Positions 2,098 to 54,716 are shown, numbered from the stretch's first letter. The stretch is DNA of 64,000 bases from an uncultured Gemmatimonadota bacterium (GCA_902826615.1 CADEFN010000001.1:434001-498000), one strand, 5' to 3'. The notes: generated from the sequence alone by a model not told the origin. Numbers and translations: made by a program.

Positions 2098-2955
2098 CTA
2101 TCTGGTCGCCGTCACTCTCGCTGTCGCCCGCTGTGCCACGAGTCCATCTGGGCCAACCGCCTCGAGGGTGACCTTGTCGGCGTGCTGCTGCGCGTGAATT
2201 TCGTACGGCGCCAGATCAAACAGCGGACGCTCGCTCCGGAATTCGAAACTCGTGACGTGCCGCGATGTCATTTCCTGCGCGAGGGAAATCAGCTGCATGG
2301 CAATGAGTGGCCCATGCACGACCAGCCCCGGGTAGCCCTCCTCGTTCCGTGCGTAGTCGCGATCGTAGTGAATGCGATGGGCATTGAAGGTGAGGGCAGA
2401 GAATCGGAAGAGGAGCCGAGTGTCGGGATGCACCATGCGGGCGACGGTTCCGGGCGCATGCGACGCGGGTGGCGCGACCACAGGTGCCGGGACGGGGCCA
2501 CCCATCTCACGATAGACGATATCGTGTTCCTCCTCGACGCAGAGCTGGCCTTCCTGCACACAACGATGCCCGACACGCACGAAGGCCAGGGGGCCGCTCC
2601 TGCCCTCCTTGAGCGACACATCGAGGATCGTTGAGGTGCGAAGGGCGGGCGCCCCCAAGACCAGCGGCGCAACGAAAGTGAGTCGACCGCCTGCGTACAT
2701 ACGCCTCGGCAACGCAATCGGAGGCAAAAAGCCACCACGCCTGGGGTGACCTTCGGAAGAAAGAGCGGCTTGAGTGGCTGGTGAGTGGAAGTAGAACCAG
2801 TGCCAGAGGGGAGGGAGCGCATGCCCCGGTTCGGCGCTGAACCCGGCCATGTCAAACGTCGCGGCCGCCGCCGCGGCCTGTGCGGGCGCGAGGCCGTCGT
2901 GGGTCGTCTCACTCCGGCCGATCCACGCCATGAGTTCTTCAGTTGTATGGGTCAT
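2098..2955 (-). CDS. HTD2-like / FAS1-type MaoC hotdog dehydratase (mesaconyl-C4-CoA hydratase-like)
   Basis: The 285-residue protein starts at the ATG at 2955 (MTHTTEELMAWIG); an open frame continues upstream but has no protein-like content. It has the look of the double-hotdog HTD2/FAS1-dehydratase family: an N-terminal hotdog with WHWFYFHSP and the hallmark GHPRRGGFLPPI followed by LPRRMYAGG, and a C-terminal half with FRFSALTFNAHRIHYD, where the His and Asp match the MaoC hydratase active site, then the central helix segment HGPLIAMQLISLA. Members hydrate or dehydrate enoyl-CoA or acyl-ACP substrates (mesaconyl-CoA, 3-hydroxyacyl thioesters); the substrate here cannot be read from sequence. 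No partner enzyme is adjacent. Confidence 0.8.
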   Translation of the reverse strand: MTHTTEELMAWIGRSETTHDGLAPAQAAAAAATFDMAGFSAEPGHALPPLWHWFYFHSPATQAALSSEGHPRRGGFLPPIALPRRMYAGGRLTFVAPLVLGAPALRTSTILDVSLKEGRSGPLAFVRVGHRCVQEGQLCVEEEHDIVYREMGGPVPAPVVAPPASHAPGTVARMVHPDTRLLFRFSALTFNAHRIHYDRDYARNEEGYPGLVVHGPLIAMQLISLAQEMTSRHVTSFEFRSERPLFDLAPYEIHAQQHADKVTLEAVGPDGLVAQRATARVTATR

Positions 2956-3222
2956 TCCAAGACCGAGCGCGTGGTAACGAGATATTGCCGTTCGGGCCCG
3001 ACATGCACCCCGTATTTGAGTCGCGCACTGGTGGAGCGCGGGGAGCTCACATCGAGACCGTCTGCGAGAATCTTCCCGTGTACCGGGTCTCCGCAACCGG
3101 ACATCGACGTCCGCCACACAATTCGAGGTTGCCGAATACGGGGCGTCCGGTACCATAATGTTCACAGGTGGCCGGGTACGAGCCGGCCGCCGCACGCGGA
3201 CCCCGAGGAGGAAGTGCCTACC

Positions 3223-4779
3223 ATGTTTGCAGCGTTCGCCGTTGTTGGTCCTGTGGCTTCCGTGCTTCTCATGATCGCGTTGGCCGGAACAAGTCGTGCG
3301 ACAGAGACCACGACGCGGCGCGACACTCGGCACGACACCTCCGCACCACTGAGCCCACAGGACTCTACACGCCGAGTGTATGGCGCCGAGGTTGAGCAGA
3401 AGCGGCAGGGGCGGCGGGTGGCGGCGCGTGTGCTCGAGTCGTTTGATGGACTGGGTGTCGGGTTCAGTGGTCCGCAGGGCGCGCCACTCCTTCGCAACCC
3501 GTCGGACAACTCGGTGGCGGTGGGGCCCGATCACATAGTCCAGACGGTGAACTCGGTGATGGCGGTGTTCACCAAGAAGGGTCGTCTGTACCGCGAGACC
3601 GGGCGGGCGCTGTCCGGTGCCCTCTCCACCAACACCATCTTTCGGGGTTTTGGGGGTGCCTGTGAGCAGCGCAACAGTGGTGACGCGGTGGTGCGGTATG
3701 ACCAGCTCGCCAAGCGATGGCTCTTTGTGCTCCCGATTTTCTCTCGGCCGCCGGGAGAGCCGAATGGCCCCTATTCCATGTGTTACGCGGTCAGCGTCGG
3801 CCCTGACCCGTTAGGCGCCTATCATCGCTACGAGTTCAAGCGTCCTCTCTTTCCGGACTACCCGCGTCCCGCCATCTGGCCCGACGGATATTATGTGCCC
3901 TCCAGCACCGGCGACGACGTGATTCAGAAACACGCCTGCGTCGTGGAACGCGACAAGATGCTGCGAGGTGAGCCGGCGCGGGAGCAGTGTGTGATCATCG
4001 AGGGAGTGAACTTTCTCAACAACGCCGACATCGACGGGTACACGCTGCCACCACGGGGAGCGCCTAACGTGATGATGGCCACCGGTGGCACACAGCTCAA
4101 GGGTGTGCTCAACGCCGACCACATCGATGTCTGGCAGTTTCATGTGGACTGGAATGACACCACCAGGACCCGGGTGACGGGCCCCGAAAAGCTCGCGGTG
4201 GCGCCGTACGCCTACCTGTGCGGCGGACAGCTCACCAACTGCGTCCCACAGCCAGGCAGCCAGCGGCGGCTCGATGCGCAGGGCGACAAACTCATGGCGC
4301 GACTGGTGTATCGCAACATCAATGGCCGCGAGTCGATTGTCGGCCTGCACTCGGTCAACACCTCACAGGGCGCGGGTGGAGTGCGATGGTACGAGTTCCG
4401 CATCGGAAAGGACCGCGCTGTGCGTCTCCATCAGCAGGGCACATATGCGCCCGACTCGGCGTATCGCTGGATGGGGAGCATCGGAATGGACCGCGTGGGC
4501 AACATTGCCATGGGCTATTCGTTCGGCGGACCGCAGCACTACGTCGGCCAGCGCTTTGCCGGCCGCACCCCGCGCGACCCACTCGGCTCGTTAGGTGTTC
4601 GGGAAGGGGTGCTGGCCCAGGGGGCGGCGTCGCAGGAGGCCACGCTGCGGTGGGAGGACTACACGCAGCTCAGCATGGATCCTGACGACTGCCGCTTCTG
4701 GTACGTGGGTGATTATTTCAAGGCGGGCGCCTCGAGTTATTCCACACGCATCGGGTCGTGGCGTCTGCCGGGGTGCTAG
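3223..4779 (+). CDS. Exported protein of unknown function
   Basis: I do not recognise the family. The start is fixed by a strong ribosome binding site (GAGGAGG, 3206-3212) ahead of the ATG at 3223; an open frame upstream overlaps the divergent gene and is ignored. The 518-residue product has a signal peptide (residues about 1-27), then a basic, Ser/Thr-rich stretch, then a globular part from about residue 70 that contains PSDNSVAVGPDHIVQTVNS and VWQFHVDW, which read like propeller or glycosidase-like repeats. Several cysteines (CEQR, MCYAV, HACVV, EQCVII, LCGG, TNCV, DDCRF, LPGC at the C-terminus) fit an oxidising periplasmic or extracellular location. It is divergent from the dehydratase gene. 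Confidence 0.6.
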   Translation: MFAAFAVVGPVASVLLMIALAGTSRATETTTRRDTRHDTSAPLSPQDSTRRVYGAEVEQKRQGRRVAARVLESFDGLGVGFSGPQGAPLLRNPSDNSVAVGPDHIVQTVNSVMAVFTKKGRLYRETGRALSGALSTNTIFRGFGGACEQRNSGDAVVRYDQLAKRWLFVLPIFSRPPGEPNGPYSMCYAVSVGPDPLGAYHRYEFKRPLFPDYPRPAIWPDGYYVPSSTGDDVIQKHACVVERDKMLRGEPAREQCVIIEGVNFLNNADIDGYTLPPRGAPNVMMATGGTQLKGVLNADHIDVWQFHVDWNDTTRTRVTGPEKLAVAPYAYLCGGQLTNCVPQPGSQRRLDAQGDKLMARLVYRNINGRESIVGLHSVNTSQGAGGVRWYEFRIGKDRAVRLHQQGTYAPDSAYRWMGSIGMDRVGNIAMGYSFGGPQHYVGQRFAGRTPRDPLGSLGVREGVLAQGAASQEATLRWEDYTQLSMDPDDCRFWYVGDYFKAGASSYSTRIGSWRLPGC

Positions 4780-4800
4780 ATGGCGGACGGCTGACGGGCT

Positions 4801-4843
4801 AGCGCGCGTGGCGCGCTCGAAGCGCATTTGCCCTGAGATGCGC
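4801..4843 (+). terminator. Overlapping GC-rich hairpins after the exported protein gene
   Basis: Perfect inverted repeat AGCGCGC-GTG-GCGCGCT at 4801-4817, overlapped by CGTGGCGC/GCGCCACG and GCGCAT/ATGCGC arms further on, with a pyrimidine-rich stretch after it. There is no clean T-run, so termination is only possible, and mutually exclusive folds could also affect the downstream gene. Confidence 0.3.
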
Positions 4844-4880
4844 CACGCTTCACTTTCTATTCCTCCCTTCCTACAGGTCC

Positions 4881-7049
4881 ATGCGCCCACGCGCCCTCGT
4901 CCTTTGCTCCCTGCTTGTCGCCTGTGCGTCTCCCGCGGCCAACAACCCTGACCTGTCGCGATGGGAAGCCACAGCGGCCCGGGTCACGATTACTCGCGAC
5001 GACTGGGGCATCGCCCACATCAAGGGGCCGACCGATGCCGACGCCATTTTTGGCATGATGTACGCGCAGGCCGAAGACGACTTCAATCGCATCGAGGTGA
5101 ACTATCTCAACTCGATGGGTCGTCTGGCGGAAGCAGAGGGAGAGAAGGAGATCTGGCGCGACCTGCGCATGAAACTCTTCATCGATCCGGCGGACATGCA
5201 GAAGCAGTACGCCGCCGCGCCGGAATCGCTCCGCAAGCTCATGGATGCATGGGCCGACGGTCTCAACTATTACCTGCACACGCATCCCGAGGTGAAGCCG
5301 CGCGTCATCACCCGTTTCGAGCCCTGGATGCCTCTCTCGTTCAGCGAGGGAAGCATCGGCGGCGATATCGAGCGCGTGAGTCTGCAGGAGCTCGAAGCCT
5401 TTTACGGCGACACCGCAAAGCGTCAGGTCGCGGTCATCGAACATGATCCCGACCTGGAGCCGCGGGGTTCCAACGGCATTGCCATCGGCGGTTCGATGAC
5501 GCAGTCGGGGAAGGCCATGCTGCTCATCAATCCCCACACCTCATTCTTCTTCCGCTCCGAAGCACAGGTCACGAGCGACGAAGGTCTCAATGCGTACGGC
5601 GCCTCCACCTGGGGTCAGTTTTTCGTATACCAGGGCTTCAACGAGAAGGCGGGGTGGATGCACACCTCCAGCGGAGCCGACAACATCGACGAATACGCCG
5701 AAAGCGTGTCGACGAAGGACTCGGGGTATGTCTATCGCTACGGCACCGAGGAGCGCGCCGTGACGTCGCAGGAGATCGTGCTGCCCTACAAGACAGAAAC
5801 CGGCATGGCCCAACGCAAGGTCCGCGTGTTCCGGACCCATCACGGACCGGTGGTGCGTGCCGTCGATGGCAAGTGGATATCGGTGCGGCTGATGCAGGAG
5901 CCGCTGAAAGCGCTGCAGCAGTCGTACAATCGGACGCGGGCCACCAACCTGAAGGAATTCCGCGAGACGATGGAGCTGCACACCAACTCCTCCAACAACA
6001 CCCTCTTTGCCGACGCCGAGGGCAACTTTGCCTACTTCCATGCGAACTTTGTGCCCAAGCGCGACCTGAAGTTCAACTGGCGACAGCCGGTGGACGGCAC
6101 CACGCCGGCTACCGAGTGGAACGGCGTGCACGGCATCGACGAGAGCCCCAACGTGTTCAACCCCGCCATCGGCTGGGTGTACAACACCAACAACTGGCCC
6201 TACTCCGCGGCCGGTCCCCAGAGCCCGCGTCGCAAGGACTACCCGTCGTACATGGACCTCAACCTGGAGAACCCGCGTGGCCTTCATGCCATTCGCGTGT
6301 TGTCGGGGCGCAAGAACTTCACGCTGGACTCCCTGATCGCGGCGGCGTACGACAGCTACCTGCCGGCCTTTGAATCGTTGATCCCCACGCTGCTGCAGGC
6401 GTGGGACCAGGCGCCGGCCTCGGACACACTCAAGGGGCAGCTCGCCGAACCGGTGGCCGCGTTGCGTGAATGGGACTACCGATGGAGCGCGACGTCAGTT
6501 CCGACCTCCCTTGCCGTGTACTGGGGCGAGGAGCTGTGGCGTGCCGTCCGTGCCGACGCCGAAAGCGAGGACATGTCGATCTATGATTTCATGGCGAAGC
6601 GCGCGTCGCCGCAGGTGAGGCTTGCCGCGTTCGCCGCCGCCGTGGGCCAGCTCACCGCCGACTTCGGGAACTGGAAGACGCCATGGGGCGACATCAACCG
6701 CTTCCAGCGTCTCACCGCTGACATCGTGCATCCGTTCGACGACGCGGGCGCCAGCATTCCCGTCGCCTTTACCTCGTCTCGCTGGGGGTCGTTAGCCTCG
6801 TTCGGGGCACGCACCTTCAAGACGAAGAAGCTCTATGGCACCAGCGGCAACAGTTTTGTCGCCGTGGTGGAGTTTGGTGACAGTGTGCGTGCGCGCGCCG
6901 TGACCGCGGGTGGTGAAAGCGGCAACCCGGCCTCGAAGCACTTCAACGACCAGGCCGAGCGGTACGCGACGGGCAAGTTGCGCGACGTGTACTTCTATCC
7001 GTCGCAGCTCACGGGTCACACCGAGCGCACGTACCAGCCGGGGAAGTAA
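4881..7049 (+). CDS. Penicillin acylase family lipoprotein (Ntn amidohydrolase)
   Basis: The 722-residue protein begins with a lipoprotein signal (MRPRALVLCSLLVACASP, lipobox LVAC with Cys15). A short alpha-chain-like segment (residues about 33-180, RDDWGIAHIKGPTDADA, typical of acylases) is followed by a linker and the start of the beta chain at RGSNGIAIGG. Ser197 there is the expected N-terminal nucleophile released by autocleavage, as in penicillin, aculeacin and acyl-homoserine-lactone acylases. The length is normal for the family. It should hydrolyse an amide at the periplasmic face of a membrane; the acyl substrate cannot be inferred. ATG at 4881 follows a weak AGG. Confidence 0.9.
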   Translation: MRPRALVLCSLLVACASPAANNPDLSRWEATAARVTITRDDWGIAHIKGPTDADAIFGMMYAQAEDDFNRIEVNYLNSMGRLAEAEGEKEIWRDLRMKLFIDPADMQKQYAAAPESLRKLMDAWADGLNYYLHTHPEVKPRVITRFEPWMPLSFSEGSIGGDIERVSLQELEAFYGDTAKRQVAVIEHDPDLEPRGSNGIAIGGSMTQSGKAMLLINPHTSFFFRSEAQVTSDEGLNAYGASTWGQFFVYQGFNEKAGWMHTSSGADNIDEYAESVSTKDSGYVYRYGTEERAVTSQEIVLPYKTETGMAQRKVRVFRTHHGPVVRAVDGKWISVRLMQEPLKALQQSYNRTRATNLKEFRETMELHTNSSNNTLFADAEGNFAYFHANFVPKRDLKFNWRQPVDGTTPATEWNGVHGIDESPNVFNPAIGWVYNTNNWPYSAAGPQSPRRKDYPSYMDLNLENPRGLHAIRVLSGRKNFTLDSLIAAAYDSYLPAFESLIPTLLQAWDQAPASDTLKGQLAEPVAALREWDYRWSATSVPTSLAVYWGEELWRAVRADAESEDMSIYDFMAKRASPQVRLAAFAAAVGQLTADFGNWKTPWGDINRFQRLTADIVHPFDDAGASIPVAFTSSRWGSLASFGARTFKTKKLYGTSGNSFVAVVEFGDSVRARAVTAGGESGNPASKHFNDQAERYATGKLRDVYFYPSQLTGHTERTYQPGK

Positions 7050-39690: not shown

Positions 39691-40860
39691 CTACTGGATC
39701 CTCAATATCCGGTCGTCCTGCGCTTGCGGGCTCCCTCGGCCGTCGCGATTGCTCGTGCCCAGGTACACACTCCCATCGGGTGCCACCAGCACATCGCGCA
39801 GCCGACCATACTGCCCCTCGAAAATCTTCTCCTGACCCGTCACACTGCGACCGTCGGCCGAGAGGGGCATGCGGTAGAGCGCGTTCCCCTTGAGTGTTGT
39901 GAAGAGCAGGGAACCACGCCACTGAGGAATCCGGGTGCCGTTGTAGTAATCGAGACCCGATGGGGCGATGGTTGGGGTCCAGTTGGCGAGCGGTTCCACC
40001 ACGTTGTTGGCCGAGCAGAAGGACATCTCGCTCGCCCCGGCGTCACCATCACACTTGCCGCGTACATCGGGCCAACCATAGTTGCGGCCCGCCTCGATGC
40101 GGTTGAGCTCGTCGTTGTCCCCTGGCCCATGTTCGGTGGAGTAGAGCGCACCTCCCGGCCCGAAGACGAGTCCCTGCGGATTGCGATGCCCCAGGGTATA
40201 GATGGCGGTGCCGAAGGGATTGCCAGGGGCCGGCGCGCCAGTGAGCGTGAGTCGTAGCACCTTGCCGGCGAGTGAGTTGCGATCCTGCGAGAGCGCGGTG
40301 TTGGAGGCATCGCCCATCGTCACGTACAGAAAACGATCGGTCCCCACCGCGATCCGTGCGCCATTGTGGACCGAGCTGCCGGGGATGTTGTCGATGATGA
40401 TCTCGGGGGTGCCGAGTGCGTTGCCGCTGACAGGCACCCGCACGACACGATTTCGGATGGATGCACCTGCTGAATAGGTGTGCGCGAGGTAGATGTACGG
40501 CTGCCCGCTGCCAAAGTCGGGGTGGAAGGCGAGCCCCATCAGCCCCCCTTCACCCACCTCGTTGACGGGGAGTGTACCGAGCCGGGTGATCGCACCGGTC
40601 GCGGGATTCACTCGCGAGATGCCGCCAGGGCGTTCGGTGACCCAGATGTTGTTGTCCGGCCCCCAGGCCAGCTCCCAGATGGTGTCAAAGCCGCCGGCGA
40701 GCGTGGTGACCGTGAGCTGCGCCGGTGGGCCCGGCGGGTCGGGGAGAGGATTGGTGGTGGGTGCGCTGCTCCCACATGCGCCGAGCAGTACTGTCACGCC
40801 GACCTGCCGTACACGTCGCCAGAAGGCGTACCGAGACACACTTTTGGTCATCAGGATCAT
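39691..40860 (-). CDS. PQQ-dependent aldose sugar dehydrogenase, lipoprotein
   Basis: 389 residues with lipobox LLGAC (Cys29). The six-bladed propeller of soluble glucose/aldose dehydrogenases is visible: TIWELAWGPDNNIWVTER, GGLMGLAFHPDF, the catalytic histidine in SSVHNGARIAVG, LYVTMGDASN, LGHRNPQGLVF, EHGPGDNDELN and GRNYGWPDVRGKCDGD. PQQ and calcium are the expected cofactors. It oxidises aldoses to lactones outside the cytoplasm. ATG 40860 or ATG 40851 may start it; GGA sits before both. No PQQ biosynthesis genes are in the window. Confidence 0.92.
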   Translation of the reverse strand: MILMTKSVSRYAFWRRVRQVGVTVLLGACGSSAPTTNPLPDPPGPPAQLTVTTLAGGFDTIWELAWGPDNNIWVTERPGGISRVNPATGAITRLGTLPVNEVGEGGLMGLAFHPDFGSGQPYIYLAHTYSAGASIRNRVVRVPVSGNALGTPEIIIDNIPGSSVHNGARIAVGTDRFLYVTMGDASNTALSQDRNSLAGKVLRLTLTGAPAPGNPFGTAIYTLGHRNPQGLVFGPGGALYSTEHGPGDNDELNRIEAGRNYGWPDVRGKCDGDAGASEMSFCSANNVVEPLANWTPTIAPSGLDYYNGTRIPQWRGSLLFTTLKGNALYRMPLSADGRSVTGQEKIFEGQYGRLRDVLVAPDGSVYLGTSNRDGRGSPQAQDDRILRIQ

Positions 40861-40977
40861 TTCCGCTGGAAAGACATAGAAGTCACTCGGACCCGTCGAC
40901 GCGCCGTGACCTTGGACACGATTGCTGCTCTCCTATTGAACCGACACCGAGGCAGGAGGTTTCCCTCATGGCCTCTT

Positions 40978-42801
40978 TTGCCGCGTGCCGGGTACATAGC
41001 GCTCGCCTGGATCCTGGGCGGGTGTTCGGCGGCCATGCGCACACCACCCGCGCCGAGCGCCATGGACTCCCTCCAGGCGCTGACCGAATTCCGCACCTCG
41101 CAAGCGCAGTACCTTCGCAATCTCCTCCCCCGACGTCCGGAGATCGCGCTCCAGGCCTATCAGCCGGTCAATTCCTTCCCGTCTCCCGCGTGGGAGGTGG
41201 ACAGTCGGGCGATCCGTGCCAACATGCGGATTGCTGCCAGCCTCGACGAGATCGACGCAGCAGCCCTGACTCCCCGGGACTACGCGACACTGCAGACGAT
41301 GCGCTGGGAGATCGACCAGACCACCGAAGCGGCCAGTTATGCCGACCTCGACTTTTCTCTGATCTCGCCACGGCGGACCCCGCTCCGTGATGTGGTGTCG
41401 GTCCTCCTGGAGCATCCGCTCGGTACCGTAGCAGACGCCGAGCGGTATCTCTACCTCCTCGAGGGGCTGGCGTTCTGGTTCGAGGATGCGCGGGCCGCGC
41501 TGTCCCAACGAGCGGGTCGCGGGCGCTACCCGTCGCGCGAAGCGCTGGCAGACTTTACCCGATTCATGTCGCGGTTCCGCGATTTGCAGCTTGCCGGGGC
41601 GTTACGGGTCGCTGATAGTCGCCTGACAACGATTGACAGCAGCGGCCATGAGTCCTTCCGCAACTTCGAACGCGAGGCGCTGGATCTGCGCATCCGCCCG
41701 CAGATGGACTCACTGGTGGCCTTCCTGACAGGTGACTACGCCACACATGCCGTCGTTCGTCCGGGTCTCTGGCAGGAAGCAGGTGGCAAGGAGTTTTACC
41801 GTCATCTGCTGCGACGCAACCTGGGGCTGGAGGTGGAGCCGGAGGAGGCGCACAAAGCAGGGATTGCCATGCTCACGCGTCTCGACTCGCTCAAGCGGGT
41901 GACGCGACAGCGCATGGGCTGGAGCAAGAGTGAAGCGGAGTATGTGCGGTTTCTGCAGCAACGTGACGACCTGCCACCCCTCACCCTGGATCAGGTAATT
42001 GCGCGGGTGCAGACGTCCCTTGTGCGGATGCGCGATTCGTTAGGGTCTCGCGTGCGCACCTTGCCCGCCGCCATGCCTCGCGTGCGCGCGGCGACGCCCA
42101 TGGAAGCCCTCCTCCACCCCGAGGGACTCGTCATTCCTTCCGCCTACGCGGACTCGGCAGCCACCCTGGTAATCACCCCGGGATGGGGAGGGAAAGCGGC
42201 GCAACTCGAAGGAGAGTCGCATTACTTTCGATGGGGCTGGCCGGGGCGCGCACTGGCGGCGGCGGTGGCGTACTCCGTTGAATCAGTCTCCTTCGCCGTT
42301 GTGGCACACCCATCGCGTACCACAGAAGCAGGATGGGGGGAATACGCGGCCTCACTCGCTGGCGAAATGGGCTACTACAACGATCCTGCAGCGGCCTACG
42401 GACGGCTCATGCAGGAGTCGCTGAATGCGGCATGGCTCGTGGTCGATACGGGCGTCCACTACTTCGGGTGGGGCAAACCACAGGCGCTCGCCCTGCTTCG
42501 TCTGAATTCTGTGGCGACCGATGCCGAGCTCGACTCGATGTTCACCGCACGGGTGATTCAGGATCCCGGAAGTGCCGGAGCCGGGGCGATAGGGCTGCGA
42601 GAAATTTCGGCGATGCGGGAATGGATGAAGAGCCGGTTGCGCGACGATTTCAAACTCGACGCGTGGCACCAGGAGTTGCTGTCGATGGGGCCACTGCCAC
42701 TGCCCGTGCTGGCGGCACACCTGGAGTGGTGGTCGTGGGACACCGCTCGCCAGCGACGCGAAGAACGCGCGAAGCAAGCGGCCAAACCGGCAAAGCGTTA
42801 G
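40978..42801 (+). CDS. DUF885-family lipoprotein with degenerate metal motif
   Basis: Length 607 residues from TTG 40978. Recognised by the DUF885 layout: TPRDYATLQTMRWEIDQ near the N-terminus, long helices, ARVQTSLVRMRDSL, and the C-terminal EAGWGEYAASLAGEMGYYNDPAAAYGRL, which matches the family's EGWALYAE-type block. The place where family members carry HExxPGHH reads GESHYFRWGWPGRALA, so the metal-binding histidines and glutamate are mostly lost and peptidase activity is doubtful. The TTG start gives a good lipobox (ILGGC, Cys16). A strong AGGAGG (40954-40959) is better placed for an ATG (40968) in another frame. Its stop overlaps the opposing gene's stop. Confidence 0.75.
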   Translation: MPRAGYIALAWILGGCSAAMRTPPAPSAMDSLQALTEFRTSQAQYLRNLLPRRPEIALQAYQPVNSFPSPAWEVDSRAIRANMRIAASLDEIDAAALTPRDYATLQTMRWEIDQTTEAASYADLDFSLISPRRTPLRDVVSVLLEHPLGTVADAERYLYLLEGLAFWFEDARAALSQRAGRGRYPSREALADFTRFMSRFRDLQLAGALRVADSRLTTIDSSGHESFRNFEREALDLRIRPQMDSLVAFLTGDYATHAVVRPGLWQEAGGKEFYRHLLRRNLGLEVEPEEAHKAGIAMLTRLDSLKRVTRQRMGWSKSEAEYVRFLQQRDDLPPLTLDQVIARVQTSLVRMRDSLGSRVRTLPAAMPRVRAATPMEALLHPEGLVIPSAYADSAATLVITPGWGGKAAQLEGESHYFRWGWPGRALAAAVAYSVESVSFAVVAHPSRTTEAGWGEYAASLAGEMGYYNDPAAAYGRLMQESLNAAWLVVDTGVHYFGWGKPQALALLRLNSVATDAELDSMFTARVIQDPGSAGAGAIGLREISAMREWMKSRLRDDFKLDAWHQELLSMGPLPLPVLAAHLEWWSWDTARQRREERAKQAAKPAKR

Positions 42802-44483
42802 GCAGTGAGTGGCTGCGTCGGCAGCAATCGCATGATCTCGTCGTAGTGACTGTGGGCGGCGATCACCACCACATCACCCGACTGCGCCGCCCGGAGCGCC
42901 ATTTGTGCGGCCTCGACTTCAGTGGGTGCCGTGCGCAGGCAGTCGGCGGGGGTCCCGGCTTCGGTGAGTGAGGCAGCCAGCACCCCGGAGACCTGACCGT
43001 AGGGACGTCCACGGAGATACTCCTCCATCTCCTTGAGGATGATGAGGTCGGGACGCCCGGCCCACACGGCGGCCGCCAGATCGTTGAGGGCGACATCGTC
43101 GCGGTCACCGGCCTGGCCGAGGGTCACAATGAGTCTACCGGTGCGCAACCGGCGCACCATGGCGAGGATGGCGTACCAGCCATCGGGGTTGTGCACAAAG
43201 TCGACGATCACCGTGGCCCCGCCGACGTCGCGAACCTGCAGGCGCCCGGGATTGTCGGTCGCGCTCGCACCAAAGGTGTGAAGCGCACGAGTGATGTCGG
43301 CATGGGTCACCCCGAGCGCGGTGGCCGCCGCGCTGGCCGCCAGCGCATTGGCCACGTTGTGTTGCGCTGCGCCGCGCAATGTGATTGGCACGTCGGCGAT
43401 GGCGGCCAGCTGCGTCTCAGCGCCGCGTGACACGGTGATGAGGTGTTCCCCGTCGGCAACGGTGGCATCGCCACCAGCCAGCACGTGCGCCCGAATCACC
43501 GGGTTGGCGGTGTCGAGTGAAAACCAGTGAATCGGCGTCTCGATCCGGCGGGAGAGGGCGACCAGGGTGTTGTCGTCAGCATTGAGTATCACCGGCCGAC
43601 CAGGGCGCAGGGCGCGCGCAACAACGAGTTTGGCCTGCCCCAGGTCGAGTTGGTCGGTGATGCCGTATTCCCCAAGGTGGTCGGCGGCGATCCGGGTGAC
43701 AACTGCCACGTCGGCGAACGTCATGGCCAGTCCGCGGCGCAGCATGCCACCACGCGCCGTTTCGAGCACGGCCGCGCTGACCCGCACGTCGTGCAATACG
43801 CGGCGCGCGCCGGCAGGGCCGGCGTAGTCGCCCTCGGCCACCATCTCGCCACCCACCACAACTCCATCGGTGCTGGTATGGCCGACGGTGTAACCCGCCT
43901 CGCGCAACATCGCAGCAAGAAGTCGGGTGGTGGTGGTTTTTCCGTTGGAGCCCGTGACCAGTGCGATAGGGACATCACGCACCGCGTCCCAGTCCACGGT
44001 GACGGGCAGGGCGCTCCAGGGCCAGGTACGCACACCCGTTCCGGAGCCCACGGCGACGACATCATCGTCGAAGGTGAGCCCGACGGCATGTGCGGCGGCC
44101 TCTGCCGCGAGCTGGCGGAAACGCGGCCTGGCTTCGTGCTGGACATGCACGCGCAGGCGCGCGAGGAGGTCGTCCGAAGGGGGTGCGAGCTGCTCGGGCC
44201 CTTCGGCGAGCGCCAGGGCCTGTTCGGTGACCTCGGTGGCGGCGAGGAGGGCATCGATGGGGGCCTCGATGAACAAACCGAGACCTGCAGGCCAGGGGCG
44301 CACGACGATGCCGTGCGTGGTCCAGCCGAGGGCGTCCATGATGTCGCGCGCGTGCCGCTGCCAGCGTTCGGTGATGGTCGCAGAGTGCGCGGGGTCGACG
44401 GCGATTTCGAGCACCGCCCCCGGGCTGCGCGAGTAGAAATTGGGGCCGAGAAGCCGGCGGGAGTCGATAAGGGCGGTGAACAC
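42798..44483 (-). CDS. CphA-like Mur ligase without ATP-grasp domain
   Basis: 561 residues from GTG 44483, which follows the cphA stop after one base. Residues 1-100 look like the CphA N-terminal domain (DSRRLLGPNFYSRSPGAVLEIAVD). The ATP-grasp domain of CphA is absent. From about residue 170 a Mur ligase domain follows: P-loop TGSNGKTTTTR (177-187), HTSTDGVVVGGEM, ETARGGMLRRG, the acceptor-site lysine region in ITDQLDLGQAKLVVARA, DNPGRLQ, VDFVHNPDGW, and a C-terminal domain ending SHYDEIMRLLP. Mur ligases make amide bonds with ATP; in CphA this half attaches arginine to aspartate side chains. Operon position means a role in cyanophycin or a related poly-amino acid, but the reaction is not known. 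Confidence 0.8.
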   Translation of the reverse strand: MFTALIDSRRLLGPNFYSRSPGAVLEIAVDPAHSATITERWQRHARDIMDALGWTTHGIVVRPWPAGLGLFIEAPIDALLAATEVTEQALALAEGPEQLAPPSDDLLARLRVHVQHEARPRFRQLAAEAAAHAVGLTFDDDVVAVGSGTGVRTWPWSALPVTVDWDAVRDVPIALVTGSNGKTTTTRLLAAMLREAGYTVGHTSTDGVVVGGEMVAEGDYAGPAGARRVLHDVRVSAAVLETARGGMLRRGLAMTFADVAVVTRIAADHLGEYGITDQLDLGQAKLVVARALRPGRPVILNADDNTLVALSRRIETPIHWFSLDTANPVIRAHVLAGGDATVADGEHLITVSRGAETQLAAIADVPITLRGAAQHNVANALAASAAATALGVTHADITRALHTFGASATDNPGRLQVRDVGGATVIVDFVHNPDGWYAILAMVRRLRTGRLIVTLGQAGDRDDVALNDLAAAVWAGRPDLIILKEMEEYLRGRPYGQVSGVLAASLTEAGTPADCLRTAPTEVEAAQMALRAAQSGDVVVIAAHSHYDEIMRLLPTQPLTA

Positions 44484-44484
44484 C

Positions 44485-47292
44485 CTAGTCGTCCGATTCG
44501 CGCGCGAGCCGGACGCCCCGTTCATCGCGCACCAGCGTCAGCTCCTCGTTGAGCGAAACACCTAACGATGGCGGCCCCTCACTCATGGGCATCGCGGCAT
44601 GCGCGCCCGAACTGTAGGGGGTGGCCGCTTCGGGTGCGGCGCCTTCGGCCTTGAAGTGCACCACCTGCTTCCAGCTGCGGGCCAGCGAGTCGGCAAACAA
44701 GAGGAGAATGTCGCCCCGCCTCGCCATGGCGAGACCGGCATGCATCGCTTCCTGTTCGTCGGGGATGATGGTGATGCGGTCGGCCGGTGTCCCGGCGGCC
44801 AGCATGGCCTCGCGAATACGGTTGGGCACCTCATCGGGTGTGCGGCCCCGCAGGTCGTCGTCACGGCGGCAGATGTAGTGATCAAAGTGGCCCGCGGCGG
44901 CCGCCTGGCCAATCTCCACCAGATCTTCGTCGCGACGGTCGCCAGGACCGGCGACGACACAAATGCGGCGCCCCTTGGTCTCTAGACGGGCCACGAGCTG
45001 GCACACGGCGTTCACTGCAGCCGCATTGTGCCCGTAGTCCATGATCACCTTGAAGGGGTGTTCATCGAACACGTTGAGCCGACCTGGCGCCTGATAGAAC
45101 GACGTATGGAAGGTGCGCAGCCCGTTGCGGATGTCCTCGAGCTTCACTCCCATGCTGTACGCCATGGCCGCGGCGAACATGGCGTTCTGCACGTTGAAAG
45201 TGGCCTTTCCCTCGAGTGTTGCGGGGACCAGATGGGTCCAGAGCAGCGGGATGTGTGCTCCCTTGTCGTAGATGGTCATCATCTGGCCATTGATCCCACC
45301 CTCGAGCGCGATGGCACGTCCCCCGGCACGAATGTGCTCGCGGACGAGCTGGTGTTCGGGGTTGAGCGTCACGTAACAGACGTTTTTCGCGTCGGTGTAC
45401 GCTGCCATCTTGAGGCATCGCGGGTCATCGGCATTGAGTACTGCGGTATCACGCGCCACTTCGGCGATGATCCGTTTGACCTCGGCAAGATCATCGAGGG
45501 TGTTCACGCCGCGCATGCCCAGGTGGTCGCTTTGCACATTGAGCACGGCGCCGACGTCGACATGACGTACGCCCATGCCGGCGCGCAGCAGCCCACCGCG
45601 CGCCACTTCGAGCACCGCGACATCGACCGACGGATCGGCCAGCACCATACGAGCCGACACCGGGCCTGTCATATCACCACTCACCGTGCGCTGGCCGTTG
45701 ATGTAGACGCCGTCGGTGGAGGTGAGGCCCACGGTTTTGCCACACATCTTGTGAATGTGGGCGAGCATGCGGGCGGTGGTGGTCTTGCCGTTGGTCCCGG
45801 TGATCGCCGCAATGGGAATCCAGCTGGGGCTCCCCGGCGGGAAGAGCATGTCGATGGTGCGTCCGGCCACGTCGCGCGGCTTGCCATCGCTTGGGGCCAT
45901 GTGCATGCGATACCCAGGCGCCGCATTCACTTCACAGATCGCTCCACCGATGTCCTTGTACGACTGCGTGATGTCGGTGGTGAGAAAGTCGACACCTCCC
46001 ACATCGAGACCGATCGCCTTGATGGCACGCACCGCCATCTCGACGTTGTCGGGGTGCACTACATCGGTCACGTCCGACGCGGTGCCACCTGTGGAGAGGT
46101 TTGCCGTGAGGCGCAGGTACACCTTTTCACCGGCCGCCGGTACGGAGTCTTTGGTGTACCCCTTGTTCTCCATGAGGCGGGTGGCCTCGTGGTCGAGTTC
46201 GATGCGTGTGAGCACCTTTTCGTGCCCGATGCCGCGCCGAGGGTCGAGGTTCACTTCGTGGACGAGCTGCTCGATGCTGTGTGTGCCGTCGCCCACGACA
46301 TGTCCGGGCTCGCGACGTGACGCCGCGACCAGTTCGCCATTGATCACCAGCATGCGGTGGTCGTCGCCGGTGATGAAGCTTTCCACCAGCACCGAGCGGG
46401 AGTGTTCCTTGGCTTTGTGAAAGGCCACCCGCACCTGCTCGTCGTCCATCAGTCTGATGGAGACACCGCGCCCGTGATTGGCATTGTAGGGTTTGACCAC
46501 CACCGGGAATCCGATACGGCGCCCGGCCTGCACCGCACCATCCTCGCTCTGGATGAGGCGCTGCTGGGGCACCGGCAGACCTAACGAGCCAAGGATCTTG
46601 TTGGTCTCTTCCTTGTCACTGGCCAGTTCGACGGCGATGTGTGGTGTGCTGCTGGTGACCGTGGCCTGGATGCGCTTTTGATAGCGGCCGTAGCCGAGCT
46701 GGATGAGAGAGAACTGGTTGAGTCGAATCCAGGGGATGTCGCGTCGTTGCGCTTCGCGCACGAGCGAGGCCGTGGAGGGTCCAAGGGCGCGCCGCTGCGC
46801 ATACCGGATGAACTCGTCGCGGGCCGTGTCCCACTCCCACCCGGCGGAGTGCGTCTCTGGGCGAAGGTGGTCGGGGAGCAGCGAATGGATGAGTGACAGG
46901 GCGAGGTCAGCGGCCTCGTTGCCTACCTCGGCCTGCTCGTATTCAAAGACGACATCGTAGACACCAACTCGTCCTTCGATTTCACGAGTCTTGCCGAAGG
47001 TGACATCTTCGCCGGCGATGTTCTGGAGTTCGATGGCGACATGTTCGAGCACGTGCCCCAGCCAGGTGCCCTCGTCCTCGCGCATGCGGCGGATGAATCC
47101 ACCGGGGACCCCATAGGAACAGCCATGGTCTTCGAGCCCGGGGAGCCGCGAGAGGAGTGCGTCGACGAACCCCGATCCCAGCCGCATGGTGGGCCACTGC
47201 TCCAGTTCGCCCAGGTCGAGTTCGAGGCGAATGACTGGGAAGTGGGCGTAGATGGAGGGCCCGACAAAAACGCGACGGTCGAGGATGCGCAT
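44485..47292 (-). CDS. cphA: Cyanophycin synthetase
   Basis: 935 residues from ATG 47292 (MRILDRRVFVGPSIYAHFPV). Three parts of CphA are present: the N-domain with CSYGVPGGFIRRMREDEGTWLGHVLEHVAIELQNIAGED, a central ATP-grasp domain (about 215-470, VVVKPYNANHGRGVSI, GGVDFLTTDI, ICEVNAAPGYRMH) and a Mur ligase half (about 480-870, ITGTNGKTTTARM, LTSTDGVYINGQ, LEVARGGLLRAGMG, VIMDYGHNAAAV). It polymerises aspartate with arginine side chains into cyanophycin, a cytoplasmic nitrogen store. The C-terminal 60 residues are variable. It is the middle gene of cphB-cphA-Mur ligase. Confidence 0.96.
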   Translation of the reverse strand: MRILDRRVFVGPSIYAHFPVIRLELDLGELEQWPTMRLGSGFVDALLSRLPGLEDHGCSYGVPGGFIRRMREDEGTWLGHVLEHVAIELQNIAGEDVTFGKTREIEGRVGVYDVVFEYEQAEVGNEAADLALSLIHSLLPDHLRPETHSAGWEWDTARDEFIRYAQRRALGPSTASLVREAQRRDIPWIRLNQFSLIQLGYGRYQKRIQATVTSSTPHIAVELASDKEETNKILGSLGLPVPQQRLIQSEDGAVQAGRRIGFPVVVKPYNANHGRGVSIRLMDDEQVRVAFHKAKEHSRSVLVESFITGDDHRMLVINGELVAASRREPGHVVGDGTHSIEQLVHEVNLDPRRGIGHEKVLTRIELDHEATRLMENKGYTKDSVPAAGEKVYLRLTANLSTGGTASDVTDVVHPDNVEMAVRAIKAIGLDVGGVDFLTTDITQSYKDIGGAICEVNAAPGYRMHMAPSDGKPRDVAGRTIDMLFPPGSPSWIPIAAITGTNGKTTTARMLAHIHKMCGKTVGLTSTDGVYINGQRTVSGDMTGPVSARMVLADPSVDVAVLEVARGGLLRAGMGVRHVDVGAVLNVQSDHLGMRGVNTLDDLAEVKRIIAEVARDTAVLNADDPRCLKMAAYTDAKNVCYVTLNPEHQLVREHIRAGGRAIALEGGINGQMMTIYDKGAHIPLLWTHLVPATLEGKATFNVQNAMFAAAMAYSMGVKLEDIRNGLRTFHTSFYQAPGRLNVFDEHPFKVIMDYGHNAAAVNAVCQLVARLETKGRRICVVAGPGDRRDEDLVEIGQAAAAGHFDHYICRRDDDLRGRTPDEVPNRIREAMLAAGTPADRITIIPDEQEAMHAGLAMARRGDILLLFADSLARSWKQVVHFKAEGAAPEAATPYSSGAHAAMPMSEGPPSLGVSLNEELTLVRDERGVRLARESDD

Positions 47293-47399: not shown

Positions 47400-48218
47400 C
47401 TACCTCACTCCCGCCGCCACGGCGCTGCGCGTATGCAGGTTGAACGTCGACCCATGGGTGAGCACATGGAGCCTCACGCCCACCAGCGACACCGGTTGCC
47501 CCCGGTCCGTGTGGTCCGCCGAGCTGAACTCCACACCACTGGGGTCGATGCAGGTAATGCCACCCGACCCATGGATGTCGATGACATCGTCGGGACCGAT
47601 GAAGGCGGCGGTGTCTTCGTCGAGGCCGAGCCCGACCGCAAAGGGATTGAGCGAGAGCGCCATGAGGAGTCGCCCGAGCCGATCACGCTGACGGAAGTGC
47701 TGATCAATCACCACCCGGTTAGTGAGCCCGAGGCCGGGCGCGAGGGTGACCATCCCCACCCGTGGGGTTGGCCCTTCCTCGCCGAAGGCAATCATGTGCT
47801 CCGACAGGAAGGCTGCACCCGCCGAGGTGCCCGCCACATGCTGGCCCATCGCATTCTGGCGGCGGAGGAGCTTGGCGATGGGTGTGCCGCCTAACGTGGT
47901 GGAGAGCTTGAGCTGGCTTCCCCCGGTCATGAACACGCCATCGGCCTGCTCGAGGATTTCCAGGTAGTCGCTGTCGTCGCAATCCGATCGACGGTCGACG
48001 TTGAGGGCCTTCACTTCACCGGCACCAAGCGAGCGAAAGAGTCGCTCGTACTCAGCCCCCGTGTTGGGATCGGCCGAGGCCGTGGGGAGCACCGCGATGC
48101 GGCCGTCGCGTCCCCCGCAGAGGGTGACAAAACGTCGCAGGATGTCGGAATCCCCGATCTTGCCACCGATCGGGATGATGTAGCCTCGTGATGCGTTGGC
48201 AGGGACGCGCGACGGCAT
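47400..48218 (-). CDS. cphB: Cyanophycinase
   Basis: 272 residues. Typical CphB features: GYIIPIGGKIGDSDILRRFV at the start, GVFMTGGSQLKL, the nucleophile elbow GTSAGAAFLSEHMI with Ser132, then GMVTLAPGLGLTNRVVIDQHFRQRDRLGRL, and GLGLDEDTA. It is a serine exopeptidase (S51) that cuts cyanophycin into beta-Asp-Arg dipeptides. It is cytoplasmic here, as no signal is visible. It leads the operon; cphA follows 107 bases later. Confidence 0.96.
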   Translation of the reverse strand: MPSRVPANASRGYIIPIGGKIGDSDILRRFVTLCGGRDGRIAVLPTASADPNTGAEYERLFRSLGAGEVKALNVDRRSDCDDSDYLEILEQADGVFMTGGSQLKLSTTLGGTPIAKLLRRQNAMGQHVAGTSAGAAFLSEHMIAFGEEGPTPRVGMVTLAPGLGLTNRVVIDQHFRQRDRLGRLLMALSLNPFAVGLGLDEDTAAFIGPDDVIDIHGSGGITCIDPSGVEFSSADHTDRGQPVSLVGVRLHVLTHGSTFNLHTRSAVAAGVR

Positions 48219-50918: not shown

Positions 50919-51231
50919 ATGCTTGCCCCACTTGCAATCGCCCTGCAGCTCACGGCCATCACCAACGTCACCGTCATCGATCCCACGAGCGGGCGAGAGC
51001 TGGCCGATCAGACGGTGGTGATCCGTGGGCGACGCATCGGGCAGGTCGGTCCAGCACGCTCGACCGAGGTCCCTGCGGGCGCCGTCGTGGTCGAAGGCAG
51101 GGGGCGGTTTGTCATTCCGGGGTTGTGGGATCGCCAATACCCGCCGCATTCACGCCGTGGTGGCCAACGGCCGCCTCTTCGCACGCGGCGCGCTGGATGC
51201 ACTCATCGAGGGAGCCAGAGTGCGGCGTTAG
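50919..51231 (+). pseudogene. Amidohydrolase remnant with internal deletion
   Basis: The first 69 codons read as the start of an imidazolonepropionase-type amidohydrolase: ITNVTVIDPTSGRELADQTVVIRGRRIGQVGP then VEGRGRFVIPGLWD, ending just before the metal-site HxH should appear. Then the same strand, in another frame, reads IANTRRIHAVVANGRLFARGALDAL and stops at 51231, which is the usual C-terminus of the same family. Junction at about 51126-51133. About 1 kb (the whole catalytic barrel) is missing and the frames do not match, so this is a fossil of a deletion, not a gene. It lies between two healthy genes and overlaps the end of the 1162-residue protein gene by 4 bases. Confidence 0.85.
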
Positions 51232-54200
51232 AGCTTGGCGACGGCCTTCACCACGGGGTCGGCCCAGGAGAAGAGGAAACTCCTGATGGTTGGGAACTCG
51301 GAGCTGAGCAGCACCAGCAATGGAATGGCCCCGAAGACCATCAGGTTGAGCACAAATGACGTGTCCCATGTGACCTTGCCGGGCGTGGTGCGCGTAATGC
51401 GGCTCAGCACGTCGTTGCGGCTCATGCGGGTCATCACAAAGAAGAGCGCCACGACGGCGGCAATCACCAGACCGATAAAGCCGCCCTTGATCATCCCTTG
51501 TGGCTGGAACACGTACGACGAGAGTCCCACCACGGAAAGCAGCAGGGTGATGAGCAGGAAAAGGGCGAGACGTCGCAGGTTGAGCAGGATGCGCTCGACA
51601 TGCACAAAGACGCCAAGTGCGACAAACTCTTCGGCCGCACGCAAGGCGGCGATGAGCCTGGTGTCGGTCCCCGCGGTCTCGGTGAGTTCTCCCTTTTCGT
51701 TGAGTCGAGAGCCTGCTGCTCTCCAGCCGTGGATCATGCCGCGAGCGGTGCGCACGAGCCGTTGCGCCGACGCCGGGAGTTCCACGTCGTCCGTCCGGAG
51801 CACGGTACCCAAGGCCTTCGCGGGCGCCAACGCCGCGTCGTCCAGGCAAGCCTTGCTGGCCGCGTCCACGTGTTGCCACAGCTCGTCTGGCGCGGAGCTA
51901 TCGGTGTCGCCGGCAAGGCCGATGAATCCGATGGGTGTGTTCCCAACGACAGATTGCGGCAGCCGGCCGAAGGCGTGCACCAGGGGGAGCTCCGCCACAA
52001 TCATCAGGAGCCGTTCGAGTGATCGCCAGGTGGCGACCAACCGGTAAATCGCCCAGCTCACGGTCGTGACCAGTCCCAGAAAGCCGAGTGCCAGTGTGCC
52101 CCCAACCAGGAAACGCCCGGCGATCACACCACTTGTCAGACGCTCCATGGTGGGATTGGAGCGCACAAGGAAGGCGGCGGTCGCAAACAGGATGACCACG
52201 GCCATTCCCTTCGTGAGCCCATCGGGGAGGAACCACTGGAGCACACGGCGACCGGTGAGCAGCTCGCTCCGAAGCCGTTCCATGCGCGCTTCAGCGGTCT
52301 CCGGATTGGAGGTGAGGGCATCGACCGCCGATTCCAGGATCTGCGTGTGTTCGAGTTCCTTGGTCTGCTGCAGCTGCCACCAGGTCCAGATAGTGAACGC
52401 AACGCCGAACACCGAAATCAGCGGCAGCGGCGTGACGCCGCTGAAGAAGTCGCTCACCCGCGCCAGTAGCAGGGTGCTCTCGCTTCCCCCGAACACCACG
52501 TGCCACGCCAGCGTGGCCACATATCCGGTGGAGGCAATGAAGTAGAGCACGGAGAAGGTCGTGATCACTCCCACGGCAAGCCGTCCGCTTGGTCGCAGGT
52601 GCTCGTCGGGTGTCTCGGGGACATTTTTCCCTCTCGACTCGAGGACGTCGGCGAGATAGGAGAGCACCAGGCGAGCGCCCACGATAAAACTCCACAGCGT
52701 CAATGCAATGGCGGCGTAGGTGGGCAGGGTGAGTGGGTGCCCCAGTTCGGGATACGGACTCCGGAGCATGTGCCGCGCTTCCACGCCAACCGCAAAGGGA
52801 AAGACCGTGCTGGCCACCGACCAGAAGAGGAGCCCGACGTAAAAGCGCTGACGTGGAGTGGTGGGTGGGGTGAGCCCGATCGACGACAGCGGCATGGGAA
52901 ACCAGACTCGGTGCCCCCTCACCTTGAGCAGGAGGAGTGCGAGGAGAACCGCGCAGCTCAGGATCCAGCCGAGGGTGAAGAGACGCCGGCCGTCGATGAA
53001 CTGCGCCAGGCCCAAACGTCTGGAAGCAGGCGTCGCCCGCGGCGCCCCGGTGGCGGGCACAAGGTAGTCGCGCCAGGCCGTGGGGGCACTGTCGGTACGC
53101 ACCGGAAAAAAGGTCCCGCGCCCCACCGTGCTCACCCACACCGGCGGGATGCCACCACCTGCGCTGGCGGGGGGTGCGTACTCCAGCATTGGCTGTTTGG
53201 CGTCGATCAGAGCGAGGGTCGCGTTGTAAATCCCGAGCGCGGCATCATTCGGGAATGCCATCAGGTTGTTTTCGGCGTCGCCTCTCCGGCTCGTCCAGTA
53301 CTGATTGTCGAGCACGAGGGGGTAGGTGGTCATCACCATCATGCCCTGCAGCGCCTGGAGGTACTCGGGGCGCAGAAAAAGGGCATTGTTTTCGTAGGTG
53401 AAGAGCACCACGTCGCGCAGCCGGCGCCGGAGTTCGCGGGCGAGCATGAGCTTGTCACGCACATCGGTCGCCTTGATGACCACCGCCCGAATGTCATGGG
53501 CCCGGAGCTGCTGCATGGCATTGTCCATCACCACGTCGAGCGTTGGCACGGTGAGGCGCGAGACAACGGGCGGTGACTCACGGGGTTTCGCCGACTCATC
53601 GAGGGAAAGCCTGGTCCGCGGTCCTTCACCCAGTCCGAGCAGTGGTGACTGCTCCAGTGGTCGCGAGGTGCGGTCGAACTCGCTGCGCAGGCTCGCGATG
53701 TTGAGCGGGAACGAAATCGTGAGGTAGCCGCGACCGGCGTGTGAGGTGCTGTCGGCTCCGTATTGGGTAGCCGACTCCGACAACACCGCCACCTGGTCGT
53801 GTGTATACCCCAGATCGTCGATCACATGGTCGAAGGCCGTGGACATGGCCTCGTCCGAGTGGACGGTAGAGCCAAACGAAATACAGCTCCTGAGTGTGTC
53901 CGCGGTGCGCGGACAGATGGCGTCGCGCGTGAGTGTCTGGCGATTGCCGTACGACGTGGCGGAGCCGGTCACGACGCGGACCACGCGCGCCTGCTGCTCG
54001 GCGCGGGCGCGGTCCAGCACAAATCGCAGGGAACGCGCCGAGCCGCTGAAAATCGGCCCCGCGATCAGGAGTGAATCGGCATGCCCCGCGGGGAGATACA
54101 GCGTGCTGTCGGGATACGAACGCAGCGACCGGCGCTCGGCCAGCGCGGCGGCGAGTGCGCCCTGATGGACGCCGGAGGTTGGAACCTCGGGGACCAGGTA

Positions 54201-54716
54201 GAGCAGCCAGAGCGAAGGCGACGCCGTCCCGATGGAGCGAAAGAGAAAGACACCGGGGGCCACGTCGTGCAGCCGAACCGGCGCCGGCGAATCGCTGAAC
54301 TTGATGGTCTCATCGCGACCCGGAAGCCAGAATCGATCGGGGACGTATCCGGCCTGGGCAAAGGAGCGGCGAAATGACTCGAGGTACGAGTCATACGACC
54401 AGTCGAGGTGCGAATCGTAGGGATCGGGCACCGTGGCGATGAGCACACGCACCTCGTAGTGGCGTCCCGACGGAAGGGTGTCGCCGCGACTGATGCCGAG
54501 GTATTCCTCAATGAGCTCACGCCCCCGGTCGAAGGCGGCGATCGCCTTTTCACGTTTGGAGGAATCGGTGCGCGTGGCCGGGGCGGGTGCGCTGGCGGAG
54601 GGGGGCGCGCTCGATACCGGCGCCGCACTCGAACCTCCGCGCAATGCAAGCGCAATAACCGCGACGATCGCGCTGAACCCCGTCAGCCCGAAGGCGAGTG
54701 AGCGATTCTCTGCCAT
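51228..54716 (-). CDS. Very large polytopic membrane protein of unknown family
   Basis: 1162 residues. A first helix (residues 8-27) leads into a big soluble domain of about 560 residues, probably periplasmic, containing YEVRVLIATVPDPYDSHLDWSYDSYLESFRRSFAQAGYVPDRFWLPG, LYLVPEVPTSGVH, DHVIDDLGYTHDQVAVLSES and VVIKATDVRDKLMLARELRRRL, the last part resembling Rossmann-like periplasmic-binding folds. Then about eight to ten helices (residues about 590-930 and 1045-1160) with a cytosolic helical insert (about 930-1045). I do not recognise the protein. It is transcribed alone or with the upstream TPR gene (43 bases before it). Confidence 0.7.
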   Translation of the reverse strand: MAENRSLAFGLTGFSAIVAVIALALRGGSSAAPVSSAPPSASAPAPATRTDSSKREKAIAAFDRGRELIEEYLGISRGDTLPSGRHYEVRVLIATVPDPYDSHLDWSYDSYLESFRRSFAQAGYVPDRFWLPGRDETIKFSDSPAPVRLHDVAPGVFLFRSIGTASPSLWLLYLVPEVPTSGVHQGALAAALAERRSLRSYPDSTLYLPAGHADSLLIAGPIFSGSARSLRFVLDRARAEQQARVVRVVTGSATSYGNRQTLTRDAICPRTADTLRSCISFGSTVHSDEAMSTAFDHVIDDLGYTHDQVAVLSESATQYGADSTSHAGRGYLTISFPLNIASLRSEFDRTSRPLEQSPLLGLGEGPRTRLSLDESAKPRESPPVVSRLTVPTLDVVMDNAMQQLRAHDIRAVVIKATDVRDKLMLARELRRRLRDVVLFTYENNALFLRPEYLQALQGMMVMTTYPLVLDNQYWTSRRGDAENNLMAFPNDAALGIYNATLALIDAKQPMLEYAPPASAGGGIPPVWVSTVGRGTFFPVRTDSAPTAWRDYLVPATGAPRATPASRRLGLAQFIDGRRLFTLGWILSCAVLLALLLLKVRGHRVWFPMPLSSIGLTPPTTPRQRFYVGLLFWSVASTVFPFAVGVEARHMLRSPYPELGHPLTLPTYAAIALTLWSFIVGARLVLSYLADVLESRGKNVPETPDEHLRPSGRLAVGVITTFSVLYFIASTGYVATLAWHVVFGGSESTLLLARVSDFFSGVTPLPLISVFGVAFTIWTWWQLQQTKELEHTQILESAVDALTSNPETAEARMERLRSELLTGRRVLQWFLPDGLTKGMAVVILFATAAFLVRSNPTMERLTSGVIAGRFLVGGTLALGFLGLVTTVSWAIYRLVATWRSLERLLMIVAELPLVHAFGRLPQSVVGNTPIGFIGLAGDTDSSAPDELWQHVDAASKACLDDAALAPAKALGTVLRTDDVELPASAQRLVRTARGMIHGWRAAGSRLNEKGELTETAGTDTRLIAALRAAEEFVALGVFVHVERILLNLRRLALFLLITLLLSVVGLSSYVFQPQGMIKGGFIGLVIAAVVALFFVMTRMSRNDVLSRITRTTPGKVTWDTSFVLNLMVFGAIPLLVLLSSEFPTIRSFLFSWADPVVKAVAKL

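Follow-up and report, generated by a model that had tools for sequence, protein, structure and literature searches.

The window analysed here, a stretch of 64,000 nucleotides from an uncultured Gemmatimonadota bacterium (GCA_902826615.1, CADEFN010000001.1:434001-498000), carries on its minus strand a group of three genes in the order cphB, cphA and a gene encoding a Mur ligase of 561 amino acids, hereafter the paralogue. The features of these genes are as follows:

47400..48218 (-), cphB, cyanophycinase, 272 aa
44485..47292 (-), cphA, full-length cyanophycin synthetase, 935 aa, with N, G and M domains intact and HxxEH present
42798..44483 (-), CphA-like Mur ligase without ATP-grasp (the paralogue), 561 aa, GTG start at 44483, alternative ATG at 44525
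44193..44483 (-), shortened CphA-type N-domain of the paralogue, residues 1-97, without the HxxEH hydrolase segment
43980..44192 (-), linker that matches the beginning of the CphA G-domain, residues ~98-168
43392..43979 (-), Mur ligase core, about residues 169-364, with the P-loop GSNGKTTT (178-185), E241, D268-H269 and K285
42849..43391 (-), end of the Mur core and C-terminal lid, about residues 365-545, holding N379, R414, H431, R461 and the altered amino-acid motif KEMEEYLRGR (484-493)

The CphB and CphA of the window both score above the curated NCBIfam cut-offs. The paralogue contains the motifs TGSNGKTTTTR and EYGITDQLDLGQAKL and ends in a TAA stop at 42798-42800. The cphA stop occupies 44485-44487, so that if the GTG is the start codon the two genes are separated by the single base 44484, as an earlier note on this DNA had reported. 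The frame of the paralogue is open further upstream to the ATG at 44525 (575 aa), a start which would overlap cphA; the residues that it adds lie outside the conserved family, which begins at approximately residue 7 (DSRRLxGPN).

A gene encoding a DUF885 protein (PF05960; window 40480-42801, +) converges on the paralogue, and their stops overlap in the sequence TTAG at 42798-42801. Elsewhere in the window, at 51228-54716 (-), lies an open frame of 1162 aa, which contains several hydrophobic stretches and for which a Pfam search returned no match.

Domain composition and predicted fold

The earlier note described a CphA paralogue which keeps the Mur-ligase half, lacks the ATP-grasp half and lies in the cyanophycin operon, and Pfam searches, predicted fold and locus all agree with this description. 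Both Mur ligase domains were detected (Mur_ligase_M, 77.4 bits compared to a cut-off of 24; Mur_ligase_C, 47.4 bits compared to a cut-off of 28.4), together with further features of the Mur superfamily, namely the P-loop, conserved lysines (K182, K285) and an acidic Mg site (E241). Pfam ATP-grasp models gave no match in the paralogue; several match the adjoining CphA. The CphA model TIGR02068 assigns the paralogue 373.7 bits compared to a cut-off of 850 and is aligned only at profile positions 477-855, and BLAST comparison with the CphA of the window revealed 38% identity across the Mur domain plus a faint match at the extreme N-terminus.

The structure of the paralogue, predicted by AlphaFold2 from 36 family members (pLDDT 94.6, pTM 0.93), contains no ATP-grasp fold, and the top ranks of a Foldseek search with this model were taken by nine CphA1 chains. 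Superposition on TeCphA1 (7wae_A) aligned 549 residues, spanning chain residues 1-877, at 3.2 Å (VIA-align, Z 40.3). When the N-terminal 168 residues were modelled separately (pLDDT 96.2), their best matches were to CphA1, at Z up to 11.5 (164 residues aligned over chain range 1-486); CphA2 followed with Z 9.4-9.6, compared to 7.3 for the best unrelated match. Profile alignments, each a single comparison, equate residues 3-31 of the paralogue with CphA 1-29 (E 2e-5) and residues 102-151 with CphA 153-205 (E 5e-5). As the structure comparison and the profile alignments agree, we conclude that the paralogue corresponds to a CphA from which the ATP-grasp core (approximately CphA 210-490) is absent, with a linker retained from the initial ~50 residues of the G-domain.

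The CphA-like N-domain claimed previously from ~30 residues is thus supported by both profile and structure, but in a reduced form, being 97 residues long compared to about 150 in CphA and devoid of HxxEH, which was present in 0/100 family members and in 92/92 of the CphAs that accompany them (partner CphAs). This similarity is clear only with the broader alignment and structure, and with a profile built from Gemmatimonadota only it was not seen past 34 residues. The HxxEH hydrolase site is carried by most CphA1s, in which it makes primers and has been linked to primer independence (PMC9262961).

The likeness to CphA1 (TIGR02068; 7lg5, 7wae, 7lgm, 7lgn) therefore extends to the N-domain core, the start of the G-domain, the whole M-domain, the arrangement of the domains and the Mur catalytic residues, while the paralogue differs in the absence of the ATP-grasp core (which in CphA1 adds Asp to the backbone) and of the HxxEH segment, in a different amino-acid motif in the lid and in its position in a separate clade. 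Cyanobacterial CphA2 (7ta5, 8fxh) is also a reduced CphA relative, sharing the N-domain fold and the absence of HxxEH (PMC9262961). Its reduction is however opposite, as the earlier note had suggested: CphA2 has retained ATP-grasp but has neither the P-loop of the M-domain nor Mlid (PMC9427784), whereas the paralogue has P-loop and lid and no ATP-grasp. The short CphA of Burkholderiales (about 720-800 aa) resembles the paralogue in being a second CphA-like gene next to a full-length cphA, but it matches CphA from position 1 to about 730 and consists of N, G and M-core with no lid, so that ATP-grasp is retained and the paralogue is the reverse of this copy as well; the two were therefore not equated. 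Most of the cphA-bearing Burkholderiales that we examined have such a short CphA beside a full-length CphA, about 41% identical to the CphA of the window.

MurE and the other Mur ligases share the Mur fold and catalytic residues with the paralogue, which differs from them in its CphA-type N-domain, in the absence of a DNPR-type acidic motif and in a sequence far nearer to CphA. The gene is labelled in RefSeq only as 'Mur ligase family protein', and its fold is common to MurC-F, from which it might be argued that it belongs to another pathway, acting on peptidoglycan or some other peptide, and that its proximity to cphA is unrelated. We regard this as very improbable, as the paralogue lies under the cut-off of every MurE profile, score, tree and structure all place it much nearer to CphA than to MurE, and its linkage to cphA has been maintained over several phyla.

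Distribution, linkage to cphA and origin

Among 298 Gemmatimonadota genomes, 45 carry the paralogue, and within this phylum it accompanies one type of CphA: it is present in 43/46 genomes with the partner-type CphA and in 0/24 with the other CphA type only, counts which take related genomes as independent. When GTDB species genomes were scanned for a motif specific to the family, 177 relatives were recovered, of which 80 were kept; these belong to the Gemmatimonadota, Acidobacteriota, Planctomycetota, Eisenbacteria, Chloroflexota and the alpha-, beta- and gammaproteobacteria. For the Lysobacter order, among the matches listed, 88 of the 96 genomes with partner-type CphA carry the paralogue, and at least one of the remaining eight has a copy cut by a contig end.

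Of the 74 loci for which sufficient sequence is available upstream, 73 have cphA immediately before the paralogue and in the same orientation, usually with cphB preceding it; in the sole exception (L083) cphA is on a different contig. The two sets of loci behind these linkage counts partly overlap, and the counts are therefore not additive. The distance from the cphA stop to codon 9 of the paralogue has a median of 47 bases, the start of the paralogue usually being close. A few Burkholderiales display the order cphA, paralogue, cphB, with divergent paralogue copies (30–32% identity). Clustering of open reading frames from 120 loci, in which many clusters were spurious antisense frames, identified no other conserved neighbour as widespread as the cph genes.

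Some individual genomes show other arrangements. One of them (G335; L202, L203) has the paralogue and cphB-cphA on separate contigs, the paralogue not being at a contig end and no cph gene lying within the few kb examined around it. Another (G223; L048, L171) encodes both CphA types and has the paralogue beside the proteobacterial-like type only. At two loci (L146, L150) the usual cphB is replaced by a 718-aa open reading frame at about 2820-4978 (-), directly upstream of cphA on the opposite strand, with weak similarity to cyanophycinase (31–32%). Plasmid operons comprising cphA, an isoaspartyl peptidase gene and cphB, without the paralogue, occur in Rhizobium, Sphingobium, Mesorhizobium and Deinococcus (L195, L196, L197, L198). 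A connection between absence of the paralogue and loss of HxxEH was unsupported, as CphAs without an adjoining copy at two loci (L199, L201) keep the motif.

Maximum-likelihood analysis of Mur domains, with sampled CphAs that include cyanobacterial and proteobacterial types, placed the family in a single clade (support 98/95) outside every sampled CphA. The CphA side of the split is weakly supported (83/52) and the depth of the split is therefore uncertain; a recent duplication of the adjoining cphA is excluded as the source of the paralogue. The phylogeny also answers the possibility, raised in the earlier note, of a frame-shifted second copy of cphA. Such a decaying copy might well be missing one CphA domain, as the paralogue is, but the open frame, the separate old clade, the invariant active site and the occurrence in over 100 genomes refute this reading, to which we assign next to no probability. 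Chance occurrence is excluded because the paralogue is conserved in so many genomes; rather than a peculiarity of this locus, it represents a conserved family of wide distribution.

The partner CphAs likewise form one clade, which also contains the characterised enzymes AbCphA1 and TmCphA1. TmCphA1 is without the N-domain hydrolase motif (PMC9262961), and no HxxEH was seen for AbCphA1 in our alignment. Protein distances between paralogues and between CphAs are correlated (r 0.68; 0 of 2000 permutations as high and none above 0.10), with the paralogue evolving faster than CphA (mean distance 0.56 compared to 0.33).

Active site and candidate substrates

The earlier note regarded the Mur ligase as complete, and this holds not only for the two Pfam domains but also for the catalytic residues: N180, G181, K182, T184, E241, D268, H269, K285, N379, R414, H431 and R461 are invariant in 108/108 members, and T183 is T or S. 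The paralogue thereby keeps counterparts of CphA1 residues which have been tested or seen at ATP, namely TeCphA1 Lys499, Thr500, Glu558, Arg731 and His748 (PMC9427784) and SuCphA1 D585/H586 (PMC9262961). This conservation pattern is that of an active ligase, from which we infer that the family has ligase activity. A non-catalytic partner which binds CphA or the polymer and so regulates synthesis would be compatible with the faster evolution of the paralogue, and also with its architecture, since Gcore, which forms a large interface of the CphA tetramer (PMC9427784), is absent but the arrangement of N- and M-domains is kept, so that docking on CphA is possible. Invariance of all examined Mur catalytic residues (one being T/S) in 108 members is however unexpected in a pseudo-enzyme, and we consider this role improbable. 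A role in replacing a defective CphA M-domain in trans was rejected, as no M catalytic residue has been lost from the partner CphAs, in which the DD motif is also intact.

In MurE, the C-terminal domain holds the incoming amino acid, with a DNPR-type motif for DAP or Lys central to this function. The motif DD-x-RGR, present in the partner CphAs and in all four structurally known CphAs, is aligned with DDNPR/SDNPR of MurE; its counterpart in the paralogue is KE(M/L)xxYLRGR, in which conserved acids are lacking and a one-residue insertion leaves the exact register uncertain. R461 and R491, within these motifs, are retained. The acids D801, D781 and D/E857 (SuCphA1 numbering), conserved in CphA M-domains, are gone in almost all members of the family: the position of E857, which is D868 in the CphA of the window, is taken by H544 in 99/108 members, and Arg or Lys occupies position 547 in 90/108. 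There is no simple charge difference between paralogue and CphA, their net charges being similar. Because, in this sequence alignment, the acidic motif common to CphA and MurE has been lost, the acceptor is probably an amino acid, but neither arginine nor lysine.

The loss of these acids bears directly on the roles suggested in the earlier note, which were attachment of a different amino acid to cyanophycin, re-sealing of trimmed side chains and activation of dipeptides. The first of these fits best, since the motif aligned with the amino-acid site of MurE has lost its acids, and the same loss makes re-sealing with Arg less likely. A repair enzyme of this kind would be a free-standing M-domain which supplies Arg (or Lys) to those Asp residues of cyanophycin that are bare, having been either skipped by CphA or stripped of their Arg. 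The fold and Mur active site are indeed equal to those of the CphA M-domain, and the gene adjoins cphA, but with D801, D781 and D/E857 missing, and with an intact M-domain in the partner CphA itself, we think such a function unlikely.

The side chain of SuCphA1 E607 touches cyanophycin in a cryo-EM structure (PMC9262961). This position is Glu in 92/94 CphAs and Arg, Lys or His in 91/109 family rows, a charge reversal which raises the possibility of a substrate other than cyanophycin itself. Another reading is that the paralogue acts on short pieces and not on the polymer, either in building primers or in joining an amino acid to the beta-Asp-Arg produced by cyanophycinase. The gene is associated with cphA and usually also with cphB, the minimal CphA primer is (beta-Asp-Arg)-Asp (PMC9262961), and an acidic acceptor, for example Asp, would be consistent with the loss of acids, the gain of H544 and the predominance of R/K at 547. 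With HxxEH present in 92/92 partner CphAs, however, a separate primer enzyme is not obviously required, and our confidence in this explanation is low.

Proposed function and significance

We propose, as a reading that we hold tentatively and judge to fall only a little short of probable, that the paralogue is an ATP-dependent ligase which joins a non-basic amino acid to cyanophycin or to a cyanophycin fragment. A CphA-like ancestor would have lost the ATP-grasp core and the hydrolase segment of the N-domain, leaving a stand-alone amino-acid ligase of Mur type. A carboxylate of cyanophycin, or of a fragment, would be bound between the N-domain and the M-core and activated with ATP as an acyl-phosphate, and the amino acid to be joined to it would be held in the C-terminal lid; the polymer synthesised by the adjoining CphA would in this way be decorated or capped. 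It is possible, if rather speculative, that several phyla make cyanophycin with an amino acid other than Arg or Lys by means of this dedicated second ligase encoded with cphA. If so, the polymer called cyanophycin in these bacteria would have a different composition and a different solubility or turnover.

We found no published description of the paralogue in the open-access literature searched, and an earlier mention may exist elsewhere. The metabolism of the storage polymer cyanophycin is described in terms of three functions, those of synthetase, cyanophycinase and dipeptidase. A Lysobacter genome paper describes the cph locus as a two-gene cluster (PMC4742617), and a genome survey of cyanophycin genes counted only these three functions (PMC10206079). 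The locus as we describe it includes a third gene, generically named and complete in its active site, which nearly always accompanies one large clade of CphA. The paralogue looks like the natural counterpart of CphA2, each half of CphA having been removed once in evolution. If it modifies the polymer, it would represent a new tailoring enzyme for a polymer of biotechnological interest, and data on the composition of cyanophycin from bacteria that carry it would need to be revisited. Many bacteria may thus modify cyanophycin in a hitherto undescribed way.
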